A stretch of 51,551 nt of DNA from Rhodospirillales bacterium. Lineage in GTDB: Bacteria; Pseudomonadota; Alphaproteobacteria; Rhodospirillales; JAPHRK01. This document shows positions 43,961 to 51,551 of this stretch, in pieces. The position numbers and the translations under genes are program-made. Numbering within the stretch: the first letter of the stretch is position 1; each line of letters begins with the position of its first letter. The notes below the pieces were generated by a model, which saw only the letters and a program-made list of their open reading frames with translations, did no database searches and was not told where the DNA came from. The stretch covers positions 1 to 51,551 of the forward strand of contig JAPHRK010000022.1 in assembly GCA_026196105.1 (NCBI GenBank), written 5' to 3'.

Positions 43961-46162
43961 TTATTCCCCAGGTGATATTTCAGTCTGGGCTGCCAACTCC
44001 GCCCGTCGTTTTTCATGCTTGTCTCGACGCTCCTCAAGGCGCTTGCGGGCATCAATCAAAGGGGGGCAACGCTGATCATCATGATAGATGTTTTGACAGT
44101 TGAGGCAGTAGATACATTCGTGGGCGTTGATTTGCCCGTCAGGATGAATGGCCTGTACCGGGCATTTTGTTTCACAGATATGGCAATCTACGCCACATTG
44201 ATGGCGACGTTTGAGCCAGTCGAACATGTTGTTCTTCGCCGGGATCGCCAAAGCTGCCCCCAAGGGGCACAAATAACGGCAGAAAAACCGATGGATAAAC
44301 AAACTGACAAACAAGAGTATCACGGCATAAAGAATAAAGGGCCATTCTCGGACAAACTTTAAAGTAATTGAGGTTTTAAAAGGTTCCACCTCGCTCACAG
44401 CCCCGGCCAGCCCTAACGGTCCAAGGGACAGGGCAAACAAAACCAGGAAGAGTACGTATTTAATAGAGGCCAGACGTTCATGAACGACAAAGGGAATAGG
44501 AATTTGTTTGATTCTGAAAATCACAGAAATTCTGTGCAACAATCCCTGCAAAGCACCAAAAGGACAAAGCCATCCGCAAAACACACCTCGCCCCCAAAAC
44601 AACAGAGCAACCGCAACAAACCCCCATAGTAAGAAAATCAACGGCTCTAATAAGAAGAAGCCCCAGCTAAACCCGGTGAGCAGGGAGTTCACAAAAGTCA
44701 CGATATTAATAACCGAGAGTTGGGCATTGGCGACCATACCAATAAAGCCAAAAGTCACAGCCAAGAAGACAGTCCGGACAATTCGGGAAAAACGACCATA
44801 CTTGGTCAAGATATCTTGGAAGAATAGCATGGTTAAAAGCAGGGCCAGAATAACACAAAGAGTGACAATTTCAGGCAGCCGGTTTTCCCATGCCTGAAAC
44901 CAGACAGGTTCTTCCCCATGGGGGAAAAATGGCCGCAAGGTGGCCGTAAGGAAGTCATCTCCCTTACGAGGCCCACTGATAAGCCAATCTGGGGTGTCAT
45001 ATATTAAAGGAAAAACGGCATGTGCCTTTTCTTGATCCTCAAAATCACGTTCGACCAACAATTCAATTCGCCAAGGCTCTGCCGGATCAAAAGCAGCTTC
45101 AGGCGGTAATACAAACAAGCTAACAGCCCTTAGGGAAGGGGCCTTGGCTATCGGTATTGCTTTGCGAATAGGACGGTGCATCTCCCGAGTTAGCCGGATG
45201 ACCTTATCACCTTGCACCAATCTGATACGATCAAAGTATCCGGTGTTGCGATAGGTGTAACCACGAAAACCATAAAGCCCATGCCCGGCAACAAATAAAA
45301 TACTGGACCCACGCGGCTCTTCATCAATGATTTTACTATAGCGCCCTAAGCCAAAAAGGTTCTGGCCAATTATAGCTGGATTAAACAGCCCGGTATAAAG
45401 CTCAATAAAGGGAGCCTTTCCGTCTTCTCCTTCATAGCCTCCTGTAATCCCAATGCTTTGTCGCAGCTTTGCATCGACTTGGGCATTGTTGAGCTTTATC
45501 TCACTCAAGCCACCTATATTAAGGAGGTCAAGCCAGCTTTTCTCTTCAAAGAAATCCATATCAAGTGCGGATGATTGGGTAATCTGGATTTCTGAGACAA
45601 TACCATAGGTACGAGCAACCATCCGGGCTGATCGAAGAATGCTATCATTAAAGACGAGGGAAGTAATGCTGGCACCACTAATTCCGTCGAGGCCCAATTC
45701 GTCTTTATCAGGAGTACCAACCCGTACCCGATGCCCTATATCCATGCCCTTATACTGTCTGAGGAAAACACTAAGGTCGGATTCGGGGATACCCAATATG
45801 AGAATCGGCTCATGATGTTCGATTACTTTTGCCCCTGTGATAATCCCTTTCAGGTTGAGCCCCACCAAGGTTTCTACAGGTTTACCCGAGTACCCCACAG
45901 ATTTGACTAATTCTGAAGTGAGAAACAGATAACCGACTTTTTCATTGCCTGAAAAAACGGGAGCGGCAGGAGGGTGGCCCTCAGAGCCACCTGCACTGTC
46001 AGCCGATGGGAAAACATCACGCCACACACCTTTTGCGAGTAATTCATCAAGGGAAGCCGCTCGCCCTTCAGAGCTAAGGGTCGCAAGCAAAATGACTAGG
46101 GTATACCCCATAATACCCTTAAATATAAAGGTTTTTAGAAGTATTGCACAAACTCTTAACAC
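43961..46162 (-). CDS. nirI: NirI/NosR-family membrane iron-sulfur flavoprotein
   Basis: A 733-residue membrane protein with an N-terminal signal segment, a periplasmic FMN-binding domain with an ApbE-type motif (DGISGAS, Ser at the acceptor site), several transmembrane helices including two CxxxCP motifs (FCGWLCPFGA and FCRYLCPLGA), and a C-terminal pair of 4Fe-4S clusters in CGVDCHICETKCP and CIYCLNCQ. The family comprises NosR (N2O reduction) and NirI (nitrite reduction); divergence from nirS favours NirI, supplying electrons or aiding nirS expression. I start at GTG 46162 (GAGG 5 nt upstream); ATG 46111 is the alternative. Confidence 0.88.
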   Translation of the reverse strand: MLRVCAILLKTFIFKGIMGYTLVILLATLSSEGRAASLDELLAKGVWRDVFPSADSAGGSEGHPPAAPVFSGNEKVGYLFLTSELVKSVGYSGKPVETLVGLNLKGIITGAKVIEHHEPILILGIPESDLSVFLRQYKGMDIGHRVRVGTPDKDELGLDGISGASITSLVFNDSILRSARMVARTYGIVSEIQITQSSALDMDFFEEKSWLDLLNIGGLSEIKLNNAQVDAKLRQSIGITGGYEGEDGKAPFIELYTGLFNPAIIGQNLFGLGRYSKIIDEEPRGSSILFVAGHGLYGFRGYTYRNTGYFDRIRLVQGDKVIRLTREMHRPIRKAIPIAKAPSLRAVSLFVLPPEAAFDPAEPWRIELLVERDFEDQEKAHAVFPLIYDTPDWLISGPRKGDDFLTATLRPFFPHGEEPVWFQAWENRLPEIVTLCVILALLLTMLFFQDILTKYGRFSRIVRTVFLAVTFGFIGMVANAQLSVINIVTFVNSLLTGFSWGFFLLEPLIFLLWGFVAVALLFWGRGVFCGWLCPFGALQGLLHRISVIFRIKQIPIPFVVHERLASIKYVLFLVLFALSLGPLGLAGAVSEVEPFKTSITLKFVREWPFILYAVILLFVSLFIHRFFCRYLCPLGAALAIPAKNNMFDWLKRRHQCGVDCHICETKCPVQAIHPDGQINAHECIYCLNCQNIYHDDQRCPPLIDARKRLEERRDKHEKRRAELAAQTEISPGE

Positions 46163-46242
46163 CCTAACCTCACTCCATAAAAAAATTTACTTCCTGAAAC
46201 CCTACACTAATATGATGATTAATGGTACAACCGAAGATGTAC

Positions 46243-46256
46243 TTAACAAAAGTCAA
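46243..46256. promoter_or_regulatory. NNR/FNR-type box shared by nirI and nirS
   Basis: TTAAC-AAAA-GTCAA matches the TTAAC-N4-GTCAA pattern associated with the NO-responsive regulator NNR in Paracoccus and differs from TTGA-N6-TCAA by one base. Centred at -41.5 it places a GATAAC-type -10 for nirS (start near 46291) and an AATCAT-type -10 for nirI (start near 46208), so one site could serve both genes. Confidence 0.75.
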
Positions 46257-46335
46257 GGCGAGCGTAAAGTCCGCTACGTGATAACCAGATTACGCAATAG
46301 AAAATGGGCCTTCCAATCGAGGCTCTTACGGGTAG

Positions 46336-48129
<1,794 letters not shown>

Positions 48130-48314: not shown

Positions 48315-48995
48315 TTATTGATTATTATTTGAAATTTCTATTTCCATATTTTTCCTTTTAAGCTCATATGTATAGCTTCCGTTATAAGATGGGCAGCAAT
48401 GAGCATCATCTTTTGTATATAATCTAAACTTTCCTGTTATTCCGTTATGGTATCCATCAATAGTCGTGGTTGTTTCTAAATAACTGCGGGTTATTTCTTT
48501 CAGATTCTTGGTTATCTCTCTACGGCGATTATATTCAGATTGAATAACCGTGATTACTTCTGCCATCAAATCGGACTTACTTGCGCCATTTGAATAAATG
48601 ATTTTTGCGTAAGTTTGCGTACCACCATTATGCCCTGTGCAATTTTTTCCTTGAAAGAATAATAAGAGGTCTTTTTCGTTGTCATCATTAAAATCAGAGC
48701 GAACTGCTTTAATTTCCTTATCATCAACAGGCAATCCATCCATTTGATCGGGATTGCCGTCTCTCCATTTCTTATGGGCTAACGAACCTAAACGTTCATA
48801 ATCACAAAGACTTCCGATTTTCTTACCTTTTAATAATTCTTGCTTCCATTTTTCAATTTCAGTCTTAACCTGATCAACTTGAGTTGTTAGAATATCATTT
48901 TTGTTGTTTTCTTGTTTCGTCCCTTGCGTACAGGCACCTAAAGCAATTAAGAACATTATACATGGAACTAGAAATTCCATCTTTTGGTTCACCAT
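48315..48995 (-). CDS. Hypothetical lipoprotein (226 aa)
   Basis: The start MVNQKMEFLVPCIMFLIALGAC gives a lipobox LGAC with Cys22. AAGGA lies 7 nt before the ATG. The mature protein is hydrophilic. It contains VRSDFNDDNEKDLLLFFQGKN, resembling an FG-GAP or calcium-binding-like D-x-D pattern, then a Lys/Asn-rich region and a CCPSYNGSYTYELKRK end. Codon use is more AT-rich than in its neighbours, hinting at recent acquisition. Family and function are unknown. Confidence 0.75.
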   Translation of the reverse strand: MVNQKMEFLVPCIMFLIALGACTQGTKQENNKNDILTTQVDQVKTEIEKWKQELLKGKKIGSLCDYERLGSLAHKKWRDGNPDQMDGLPVDDKEIKAVRSDFNDDNEKDLLLFFQGKNCTGHNGGTQTYAKIIYSNGASKSDLMAEVITVIQSEYNRRREITKNLKEITRSYLETTTTIDGYHNGITGKFRLYTKDDAHCCPSYNGSYTYELKRKNMEIEISNNNQ

Positions 48996-49192: not shown

Positions 49193-49927
49193 ATGGCAGG
49201 ATTTCGCAATCTCTTTCGGCTTTTTTTAGAAGCCCTGCGCGATCTATTGCCGATTATCTTGGTTATTACCTTTTTTCAGGTCATCGTTCTTAAGCAATCC
49301 TTCCCAAATCTCGGAGATACCCTTGCTGGATTAATCTTTGTAGTGGTTGGGTTAACCTTATTCGTACAAGGTTTGGAATTGGGATTGTTCCCAATCGGCA
49401 ATGCTTTAGCCAATGCTCTTGCCCACAAAGGTAGTCTTTGGATTTTGTTTGGTTTTGCCTTTGCCTTAGGCTTTGGCACCACCGTAGCTGAACCCGCTCT
49501 TATTGCGGTGACTGCTGAAGCTGCAACTGTGGCTGCTGGTGGAGGACATATTGAAAACACCGATGTCGCAAAGGGCTCTTATGCAAATTATTTACGCTAT
49601 ACGGTCGCCGTATCTGTAGGCACTGCTTTGGTCCTGGGTGTCTTTCGCATTCTTAAAGGCTGGCCGATTCAGTTTTTCATTATTGGGGGGTATATTCTGG
49701 TGGTTATTATCACCGCTTTTGCTCCACAAGAAATTATTGGCATCGCTTATGATTCAGGCGGTGTGACGACTTCAACCATTACCGTTCCTTTAGTAACTGC
49801 CCTCGGGGTTGGCCTTGCCTCTATGATCCGGGGACGTAACCCGATGATCGATGGTTTTGGCCTCATTGCCTTTGCCAGCCTAACGCCCATGATTTTTGTT
49901 CTCCTCTTTGGCATTGTGATGGGATAG
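49193..49927 (+). CDS. DUF1538 membrane protein, first of two
   Basis: A 244-residue integral membrane protein with about seven hydrophobic segments. Conserved motifs are [15 protein letters not shown] (36-50), [13 protein letters not shown] (93-105), [15 protein letters not shown] (185-199) and [13 protein letters not shown] (220-232). The second gene carries the same motifs in the same order, so the two arose by duplication. The TTxAEPxLIA and [11 protein letters not shown] segments, with small and hydroxylated residues inside hydrophobic helices, look like a re-entrant or substrate path (inference). I know of no established function. AAGG lies 5 nt before the ATG. Confidence 0.9.
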
Positions 49928-49934
49928 AGCAATC

Positions 49935-50750
49935 ATGGACGCCATACTTCACCTACTCTCATCTACGGCGAGTACTGCCTACCAAACAATTTTCGATGTG
50001 CTGCCTATTGTGGCGGTTTTATTTGGCTTCCAGTATCTGGTGGTTCGCAAGAAACTCCCCAACCTTCGCAATATCGTTATTGGCTTTATCTACGTGCTGG
50101 CTGGGTTGACCCTCTTCTTGGTTGGCCTTGAAGCCGCCTTGTTCCCCTTAGGTAAAACCATGGCAGCTCAGCTCACTGACCCAGAATTTCTAGGGGCCGT
50201 TGAAAAAGGGGGAGTGCTCACCTGGATTGACTATGGCTGGGTTTATACCTTTGCCGCCGCCATTGGCTTTTCAACCACCATTGCTGAGCCTTCCCTAATT
50301 GCTGTAGCCTTAAAAGCCGAAGAAATCAGTGGGGGGTCAATCAACTCATTTGGGTTGCGTATTGCTGTCGCCATTGGTGTCGCGGCAGGTGTGAGCTTAG
50401 GGTCATTCAGAATTGTTACCGGAACCCCCCTCCCGATTTATATTATCGTTGGTTATATCATCGTCATTTTACAGACGCTTAGAGCCTCCAAAACAATCAT
50501 TCCACTTGCCTATGATTCAGGTGGGGTCACAACATCTACGGTGACAGTTCCTGTCGTCGCAGCTTTAGGTCTGGGGCTTGCCTCGACCATTGAAGGAAGA
50601 AGCCCCTTGCTTGACGGGTTTGGCCTGATTGCATTTGCTAGCCTATTTCCAATTATGTCAGTGATGGGATATGCCTCCTTAACAGGGTGGCAAAAAAAGA
50701 GAACCGAGCGTAAAAAAGCGTTAAAAGAACAGAAGGATTCAGTATCATGA
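49935..50750 (+). CDS. DUF1538 membrane protein, second of two
   Basis: A 271-residue paralogue of the preceding gene, starting 7 bp after it. It has the same motif order: KLPNLRNIVIGFIYV (40-54), GFSTTIAEPSLIA (111-123), [15 protein letters not shown] (192-206), [13 protein letters not shown], then a charged tail (KKRTERKKALKEQKDSVS) that would be cytosolic and could contact the P-II-like protein. The two halves probably form one heteromeric membrane complex (inference). The stop overlaps the next gene by 4 bp. Confidence 0.9.
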   Translation: MDAILHLLSSTASTAYQTIFDVLPIVAVLFGFQYLVVRKKLPNLRNIVIGFIYVLAGLTLFLVGLEAALFPLGKTMAAQLTDPEFLGAVEKGGVLTWIDYGWVYTFAAAIGFSTTIAEPSLIAVALKAEEISGGSINSFGLRIAVAIGVAAGVSLGSFRIVTGTPLPIYIIVGYIIVILQTLRASKTIIPLAYDSGGVTTSTVTVPVVAALGLGLASTIEGRSPLLDGFGLIAFASLFPIMSVMGYASLTGWQKKRTERKKALKEQKDSVS

Positions 50751-51097
50751 ATTTTAAATTGGTTATGGCACTTGTCAGCATCGATAAAACAGACGTGATA
50801 ATTGAGGCGGCAAGAGAAGCGGGGGCGACTGGGGCCACAACAATCTCCAGCGTTAGGGGTGAAGGATTAAAACCAGAAAAAACTTTTCTTGGCCTGGACC
50901 TCACCGGTCAAAGAGACGTTGTTCTTTTCATTGTTGCCGCTGAAAAATCTCGTTGTATTCTTGAAGCTATTGGTGCGGCTGGAAATTTCGATTCAGAGCC
51001 TGGCGCGGGTGTCGCCCTTGAGATCAACATTGAAGATGCTGTCGGCATGGGAACCCAACTACCAACAATACTTGAAGAGATAGAGGACGAGGTATGA
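50747..51097 (+). CDS. P-II-like nitrogen-regulatory-family protein
   Basis: A 116-residue protein with a P-II ferredoxin-like fold: FKLVMALVSIDKTDVIIEAAREAGATGATTISSVRGEG, then a T-loop region (about 38-56, LKPEKTFLGLDLTGQR), a VVLFIVAAEKSRCILEAIGAAG second half and the IEDAVGMGTQ end. The T-loop is a few residues shorter than in GlnB and lacks the Tyr that is uridylylated in enterobacterial P-II. So it is a P-II-like protein, probably nucleotide-binding, coupled to the DUF1538 proteins through 4-bp overlaps on both sides, reminiscent of GlnK-AmtB or SbtB-SbtA (inference). Confidence 0.85.
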   Translation: MNFKLVMALVSIDKTDVIIEAAREAGATGATTISSVRGEGLKPEKTFLGLDLTGQRDVVLFIVAAEKSRCILEAIGAAGNFDSEPGAGVALEINIEDAVGMGTQLPTILEEIEDEV

Positions 51098-51486
51098 GTG
51101 ATAGGGCATTCACAAAAGTAAGTGAGGTAATGACAGCAACAGTTCAATCCATTGCTCGTACCGCCACTGTCGCCGAGGCGGTAGCCGCCATGAAAGAGCA
51201 CCAGGTTAGTTCTCTTGCAGTTGAACGCCGAGGGCCTGATGACGAGTTCGGCGTTATTACTGTTTCCGATATCGCCCAGGCTATTGTCAAATATGACAAG
51301 CCTCTTGAGCGGGTTAATGTGTATGAAGTGATGTCTAAGCCAGTTCTGACAGTTCCTGCTGACATGAACATCAAATATGCAATTCGCTTGCTTGTGAAGT
51401 TTGGTCCATCAAGGGCTGTGGTTGTTGATCAAGAAAGAGCACCTGTAGGGATTGTTACCTTACGGGACATGGTCCTTGGGACATGA
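51094..51486 (+). CDS. CBS-domain pair protein
   Basis: A 130-residue protein with two CBS motifs: VSEVMTATVQSIARTATVAEA...GVITVSDIAQAIV and VYEVMSKPVLTVPADMNIKYA...GIVTLRDMVLGT. Tandem CBS domains form a Bateman module that binds adenosine nucleotides such as AMP or ATP. No attached catalytic domain is present. The gene overlaps the P-II-like gene by 4 bp and the next gene by 4 bp, so all products are likely made together. It is likely a second nucleotide sensor for the DUF1538 complex (inference). Confidence 0.92.
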   Translation: MSDRAFTKVSEVMTATVQSIARTATVAEAVAAMKEHQVSSLAVERRGPDDEFGVITVSDIAQAIVKYDKPLERVNVYEVMSKPVLTVPADMNIKYAIRLLVKFGPSRAVVVDQERAPVGIVTLRDMVLGT

Positions 51487-51551
51487 CCCAAAAACCATTG
51501 GAAGCTGACAACCCTTTTGAAGCTGCTGCCTCAATCATTTCAAAGGGGCAT
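51483..51551 (+). CDS. Fifth gene of the DUF1538 operon (partial, runs off the right edge)
   Basis: An ATG at 51483 overlaps the CBS-gene stop (ATGA) and opens a frame to the end of the window, 23 codons starting MTQKPLEADNPFEAAASIIS. The overlap matches the pattern of the other junctions, so it is likely the next operon gene. Too little is visible to identify it. Confidence 0.6.
   Translation, partial: MTQKPLEADNPFEAAASIISKGH

Follow-up and report, generated by a model that had tools for sequence, protein, structure and literature searches.

A conserved operon joins UmpAB-type membrane proteins to a divergent P-II-like protein in a Rhodospirillales bacterium: a candidate P-II-switched cation/proton antiporter

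Introduction

The right end of contig JAPHRK010000022.1 of a Rhodospirillales bacterium, analyzed here over its positions 1–51,551 (the whole stretch, hereafter the window), carries a tightly packed operon in which the genes of two homologous DUF1538 membrane proteins, UmpA and UmpB, are followed by those of a P-II-like protein and of a protein with tandem CBS repeats. We consider it rather probable that this operon encodes an antiporter of cations and protons whose activity is switched by a dedicated P-II-type protein, in many cases with the CBS protein as a co-sensor. P-II proteins are known to gate ammonium and bicarbonate carriers, and the new part is their partnership with DUF1538: in a literature search by titles and the beginnings of abstracts, in which subscription journals were thinly covered, no report of a P-II/DUF1538 association was found, and none, mostly at the same level of titles and abstract beginnings, of a P-II protein that specifically serves a Na+ or K+/H+ antiporter. 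The genes are as follows.

49193..49927, + strand: umpA homologue (DUF1538), 244 residues; PF07556 at E 2.1e-68; 359.9 bits with NF041627 versus 177.6 with NF041628, which assigns it to the A-type subunits
49935..50750, + strand: umpB homologue (DUF1538), 271 residues with a charged C-terminal tail; PF07556 at E 3.1e-64; 356.7 bits with NF041628
50747..51097, + strand: P-II-like protein, 116 residues; PF00543 at E 9.4e-6, 26.4 bits versus a cut-off of 25; P-II fold in the predicted model
51094..51486, + strand: tandem-CBS protein, 130 residues; PF00571 at E 1.1e-20 in two stretches; GxxTxxD in both repeats
51483..51551, + strand: first 23 codons of a fifth gene, which the contig end truncates; outside the conserved unit

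The original prediction, made from the letters of the sequence, had recognized both membrane proteins as DUF1538, the third protein as P-II-like and the fourth as a CBS pair, and the matches to PF07556 (twice), PF00543 and PF00571 bear it out. The spacing that it gave is likewise that of the open reading frame (ORF) coordinates, with a 7-bp gap between umpA and umpB and 4-bp ATGA overlaps at the umpB/P-II, P-II/CBS and CBS/fifth-gene junctions.

In the mechanism that we infer, a heterodimer of the UmpAB type would exchange Na+ (perhaps also K+ and Li+) for protons, and the P-II-type protein, probably a trimer, would dock on its cytoplasmic side by means of a shortened T-loop and, once docked, would switch transport in the manner of GlnK on AmtB and SbtB on SbtA. 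Because most of the classical ligands of adenosine triphosphate (ATP) and 2-oxoglutarate are lost, the P-II-type protein would answer to another signal, sensing a different ligand or else pH or salt directly, and the CBS pair would serve as an accessory sensor with an adenine nucleotide as its most likely ligand. If this were true, many marine Pseudomonadota, some Desulfobulbaceae and some Clostridia would couple their salt and pH homeostasis to a new signal, the P-II proteins would include a branch that answers to another ligand, and the DUF1538 proteins would gain a concrete partner set that can be tested quickly.

Conservation of the operon

Two sets of genomes were compared. The first consists of the best 80 of at least 589 loci that were confirmed when genomes of named species were scanned; close relatives dominate it, and by their titles most of the records belong to the Alpha-, Beta- and Gammaproteobacteria and a few to Desulfobulbaceae/Desulfocapsa. 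The order A-B-P-II-CBS prevails among these 80 loci, with P-II in 79 and CBS in 78; at the locus that has neither (L056) 666 bases of contig remain past umpB, and at the one with P-II and no CBS (L088) only 70 bases remain past the P-II gene. Where a P-II gene was called, it ends in ATGA in 58 of the 79 loci.

The second set comprises 398 genomes sampled over the phylum of the window, the Pseudomonadota, and was searched with a P-II profile at a threshold of E 1e-6. DUF1538 was found in 126 of these genomes and the P-II profile matched in 133; the two occur together in 121 genomes, DUF1538 alone in 5 and P-II alone in 12, while 260 have neither (counts uncorrected for relatedness). The corresponding Fisher p of 1e-80 ignores relatedness and is not readable as a probability. 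The locus was inspected in 114 of the 126 genomes with DUF1538, window included, and P-II adjoins DUF1538 in 105 of them (104 by script, plus G073, where the P-II ORF had been called too long and was missed by the gap rule). Among the other nine, DUF1538 lies at contig ends in three (G120, G236, G218), three members of one family (G084, G116, G156) keep a P-II-CBS pair on another contig, G121 has P-II beside another DUF1538 match, and G093 has P-II matches on two other contigs; in G245, a genome 84% complete, no P-II was found. Seven of the 12 genomes with P-II only, all from the class of the window, have weak matches only (best E 6.9e-10 to 2.1e-7), which are probably ordinary P-II proteins; the other five have strong matches (see below).

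Since the gene order recurs across classes and phyla, the arrangement is not a product of chance. The comparison of gene neighborhoods for constant partners, which the original prediction had put forward as its check, thus turned out well for P-II and less so for CBS. Of 80 regions with longer flanks from the Pseudomonadota sample, window included, 46 have CBS after P-II; the CBS protein is a frequent, not a constant partner.

The membrane pair

Both membrane proteins match PF07556 over nearly its whole length (230.3 bits for UmpA and 216.6 bits for UmpB versus a cut-off of 22.6; profile positions 1–211 and 1–209 of 211), and the choice of subunit by NF041627 and NF041628 is wide, A over B by 182 bits in the first protein and B over A by 152 in the second. 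Both contain the motif TTxAEPxLIA followed by [11 protein letters not shown], the shared order that had been read from the sequence. Both lie under the NCBI equivalog cut-offs (359.9 versus 490 bits for NF041627, 356.7 versus 500 bits for NF041628). The UmpA proteins of ten loci picked from the 80-locus set reach 369.5–397.6 bits, also below the NF041627 cut-off, and the two top scorers with this profile (422.7 and 408 bits), both with A-B-P-II-CBS, fall short of it as well. No genome passes the cut-off in the three samples searched, of 398, 369 and 20 genomes, and it must be considered narrow because these genomes and the ten further UmpA proteins all fall below it. By these profile matches the window pair is a pair of DUF1538 members and UmpAB homologues. 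In the records viewed, DUF1538 proteins are still annotated as unknown.

The original prediction knew of no experimental characterization of DUF1538, and in this it was mistaken. UmpAB of Halomonas zhaodongensis, found by rescuing Escherichia coli KNabc, is reported to be a Na+(Li+,K+)/H+ antiporter whose activity depends on pH; UmpA and UmpB form a heterodimer by co-immunoprecipitation, and antiport was also measured in everted vesicles, where K0.5 was determined for Na+, Li+ and K+ (PMC5484666). In the cloned fragment umpB is the last ORF named, and neither P-II nor CBS occurs as a term in the main text of that paper (PMC5484666). By analogy with the Halomonas protein, the window pair may catalyze the same antiport, and may do so as its native function.

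A different substrate is the first alternative to be weighed. UmpAB could natively carry something else, such as ammonium, bicarbonate or an organic ion, so that Na+/H+ antiport in an antiporter-less E. coli would be a side activity and the P-II protein would report nitrogen/carbon status as it does for AmtB and SbtA. The known P-II/transporter pairs do carry ammonium and bicarbonate (PMC8352866; 2ns1), the published antiport is described from overexpression in E. coli KNabc (PMC5484666), and the UmpB model (see below) is without a clear solved relative, so that its predicted fold is silent on the substrate. Against this, antiport was measured in the vesicles too, the P-II-like protein is without most of the 2-oxoglutarate/ATP residues, and two reports on cable bacteria take UmpAB as a salinity marker and tie it to saline habitats, through gene presence only; DUF1538 also stands in a published table of pH-adaptation genes from a model of growth pH. 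On balance we regard another native substrate as unlikely, if still deserving attention, and prefer the cation/proton antiporter.

The AlphaFold2 model of UmpB (mean predicted local distance difference test score, pLDDT, 95.2) is all helix, in keeping with the seven-helix-like proteins first described, and has two interrupted helices, at residues 117–118 and 199–203. In UmpB numbering, D21, E118, R142, R159, D194, R222 and D227 are invariant in 66 UmpB and 10 UmpA sequences; E118, of TTxAEP, lies inside the first helix break and D194, of [11 protein letters not shown], directly before the second. Unwound helices with acidic residues are a usual design of cation/proton carriers. The invariant acids E118 and D194, which lie at or near the broken helices of the UmpB model and are kept in both subunits, are the likely cation/proton site. 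A sequence search of the PDB with DUF1538 gave no match, though AmtB is present there, and a fold search of the PDB with the UmpB model gave no clear relative (Foldseek best E 0.78; VIA best Z 5.6). The structure 4u9l, titled 'membrane protein' and aligned like the MgtE rows, has a VIA Z of 5.4 over 104 residues with a root-mean-square deviation (rmsd) of 4.3, in the range of common helical arrangements. Such weak matches do not demonstrate a new fold, and the model may represent a carrier fold that is not yet solved. No significant internal repeat emerged from a profile comparison of the two halves of UmpB (probability 0.9%).

The charged UmpB tail, which had been suggested as a docking site, is variable in the 66 sequences, with 11–45 residues and a net charge from –3 to +7, and a conserved docking motif in it finds no support.

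The P-II-like protein

The P-II-like protein is modeled (pLDDT 84.5) with a P-II fold that has a shortened loop at about residues 37–55 and a C-terminal helix. Its best PDB matches are of the GlnK/GlnB type (Foldseek E 1.5e-6; VIA Z 11.9, rmsd 5.3 over 92 residues), the AmtB-GlnK complex (2ns1) stands at VIA rank 11, and the CPII structure 5d4n is among the matches. A profile search against PDB sequences returned weak matches only, mostly to entries named P-II, GlnB or GlnK (best 7.9e-5). The PF00543 match and the predicted fold together place the protein in the P-II superfamily.

The residue set of canonical GlnB/GlnK, by contrast, is missing. In a comparison of 78 aligned homologues with the GlnB-type protein of the same genome (L223), in which the alignment of the loop is gapped, we followed Arg38, Gln39, Lys40, Lys58, Lys90, Arg101 and Arg103, which we take to be the canonical P-II residues for ATP and 2-oxoglutarate, and Tyr51, presumably the uridylylated tyrosine of GlnB. 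Lys90 is kept in 0 of 78 (Ile, Val or Met instead) and Arg101 in 0 of 78 (all Gly); in the gapped loop alignment Arg38 is likewise found in none, and Lys58 in none (gap). Of the others, Arg103 survives in 3 homologues, Gln39 in 7 and Lys40 in 19. The window residue aligned with the uridylylated Tyr is Gly, and no Tyr occurs within residues 36–57 in any of the 78, again with the loop gapped, as expected from the initial observation that the usual modified Tyr is lacking. New invariants have appeared, including G26-A27-T28-G29, G38, G40, F47, G49, G86, G88, G100 and Q104.

These losses make classical binding of ATP and 2-oxoglutarate unlikely, and the protein may bind another ligand, or none. 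Among relatives, SbtB is reported to bind adenosine monophosphate (AMP) in a published complex (PMC8352866), and PstA is reported to bind cyclic di-AMP. Given the loss of the canonical ligand residues, regulation by nucleotides stays conjectural, and a nitrogen signal of the classical kind is unlikely. The genome moreover holds two separate canonical P-II genes with intact GRQKG/GDGK/RIRTGE motifs, and these serve ordinary nitrogen control. The original prediction is supported as to a conserved packed operon, a heteromeric carrier and the pairing with P-II; the nucleotide, energy or nitrogen control that it invoked finds no support, as worded, where it would run through P-II, and it was wrong where it knew of no characterization.

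The same data bear on the idea that an ordinary GlnB/GlnK nitrogen regulator merely happens to stand beside a transporter gene. The PF00543 match just over its cut-off could be read in that way, but the canonical P-II proteins are the two other genes, and the P-II-like protein is without their motifs and is tied to DUF1538; this explanation was already disfavored and is highly improbable.

Does the P-II-like protein switch the carrier?

A stronger challenge comes from the possibility that the P-II-like protein and the CBS protein have a constitutive, structural role, or act on another target, and are co-transcribed with umpAB without any switching. The loss of the classical ligand residues is compatible with it, and several further observations weigh against a P-II-switched antiporter. 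UmpAB is reported to be active in E. coli without its own P-II or CBS protein (PMC5484666); both can therefore be only regulators, and never essential parts of the carrier. The link between P-II and UmpAB is drawn from co-location and co-occurrence of genes. P-II relatives stand away from DUF1538 in some genomes, and five (G022, G117, G129, G145, G181) have a strong P-II match (E 1e-28 or better) without a DUF1538 match in the genome or beside the P-II gene, G022 being 99% complete. In conservation, the T-loop region exceeds the protein as a whole only slightly (mean top-residue share 0.78 versus 0.72), and this small excess is the weakest point of the docking idea. As for the co-sensor, no CBS was found after P-II in 34 of the 80 regions, of which a few are truncated at contig ends, and GxxTxxD is only partly kept, with the Asp in 69 of 72 sequences at the first site and 48 of 72 at the second, and the first-site Thr in 5 of 72. 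GxxT/SxxD is the ribose-binding motif of adenylate-binding CBS repeats, and the window protein has GxxTxxD in both.

Partners without a switching role would leave the near-constant adjacency and co-occurrence to be accounted for, as well as the fused and two-domain forms in another phylum and the three genomes in which P-II and CBS stay together with umpAB elsewhere. For these reasons we judge a purely constitutive partnership quite unlikely, and a carrier switched by its P-II-type protein remains the preferred explanation.

Fused and two-P-II variants

Natural UmpA-UmpB fusions occur in several lineages, with P-II still present. As sequences they agree with a heterodimer and, together with the Halomonas co-immunoprecipitation, they favor the heteromeric membrane carrier that had been proposed at the outset. 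In nine regions the fused gene exceeds 480 residues; all nine have P-II, five of them together with CBS and four without it. A long-fused type (about 567–603 residues where whole) is followed by P-II and then by a second, diverged P-II-like gene, which a profile built from four such genes detects in 16 genomes of the phylum sample, those four included; in G120 and G065 the stretch ends too early for this gene to be judged. Of two second P-II-like genes tested with Pfam, one was below the cut-off (E 0.0044) and the other was missed. Long-fused UmpAB with two separate P-II-like genes after it was seen at loci L117-L120, L122-L128, L130-L132, L135, L217, L218, L221 and L222.

Nine plasmid records with DUF1538 were also found, of which seven were opened, the other two (H2, H5) being of the same species as opened ones. 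Two alphaproteobacterial records have A-B-P-II without CBS, the first DUF1538 looking truncated in Chelativorans, and in five Clostridia records (L248-L252) the fused AB gene overlaps a chain with two P-II-like domains, the first of which is weak in L251 (0.001). With P-II beside UmpAB in both Pseudomonadota and Clostridia, the partnership must predate, or have spread across, the Pseudomonadota/Bacillota divide.

A wider generalization has, in our view, a little less than an even chance of being right: UmpAB and its relatives might form a large class of monovalent cation/proton antiporters that are gated by P-II and occur across phyla, made of two homologous membrane halves with one P-II domain, P-II plus CBS, or two P-II domains, in which P-II would have exchanged ATP/2-oxoglutarate for a new signal (an ion, pH or another nucleotide).

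Neighboring genes

The fifth gene had been included in the operon. It does overlap the CBS gene, with its start at 51483, and it runs into the contig end; its membership in the conserved unit was rejected, as downstream genes vary from locus to locus, and the commonest other neighbor family beyond the four operon genes is found at only 15 of 80 loci. At L033 and L047 a gene matching CREG_beta-barrel (Pfam) occupies the same position, and judged from these two loci the cut gene may encode a CREG/pyridoxamine-oxidase-like protein, its 23-codon fragment being too short to classify.

Upstream of umpA, a gene for a membrane protein with FMN_bind and Fer4_5 (43961-46162, – strand), which we take to resemble NosR/NirI, is divergent from a gene for a protein with cytochrome c and cytochrome d1 (46339-48129, + strand). 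The pair looks like nitrite-reduction genes. A gene on the opposite strand (48315-48995, – strand), for a 226-residue protein whose start looks, by eye, like that of a lipoprotein and which has no Pfam match, follows, and because it stands between, the divergent pair at 43961-48129 is not in the umpA operon.

Elsewhere, P-II relatives away from DUF1538 were seen beside a gene labeled by eye as FAD-oxidoreductase-like (L226, L227) and beside a tRNA-dihydrouridine-synthase-like gene, most of the latter with ntrBC-like genes, also by eye (L236-L240).

Comparison with known systems

The closest characterized system is UmpAB of Halomonas, with which the window operon shares a tandem DUF1538 pair of similar lengths and a hydrophilic UmpB tail, as far as that protein is described (PMC5484666); the window proteins differ in that their scores (360 and 357 bits) do not reach the equivalog cut-offs (490 and 500). 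In SbtA-SbtB a P-II-like gene likewise lies in an operon with a transporter, and the T-loop of SbtB is reported to insert into SbtA (PMC8352866), but the substrate, bicarbonate, is another, and DUF1538 has neither a PDB sequence match nor a clear fold match. AmtB-GlnK has the same P-II fold, and in it too P-II is the operon partner of a membrane protein; unlike GlnK, the window P-II-like protein is without most of the ATP/2-oxoglutarate residues and the Tyr, and DUF1538 is without a PDB sequence match. Finally, CPII, PstA and similar proteins have a P-II fold without the classical T-loop, and the window protein shares this fold with CPII and PstA and differs from them in its genomic partner.

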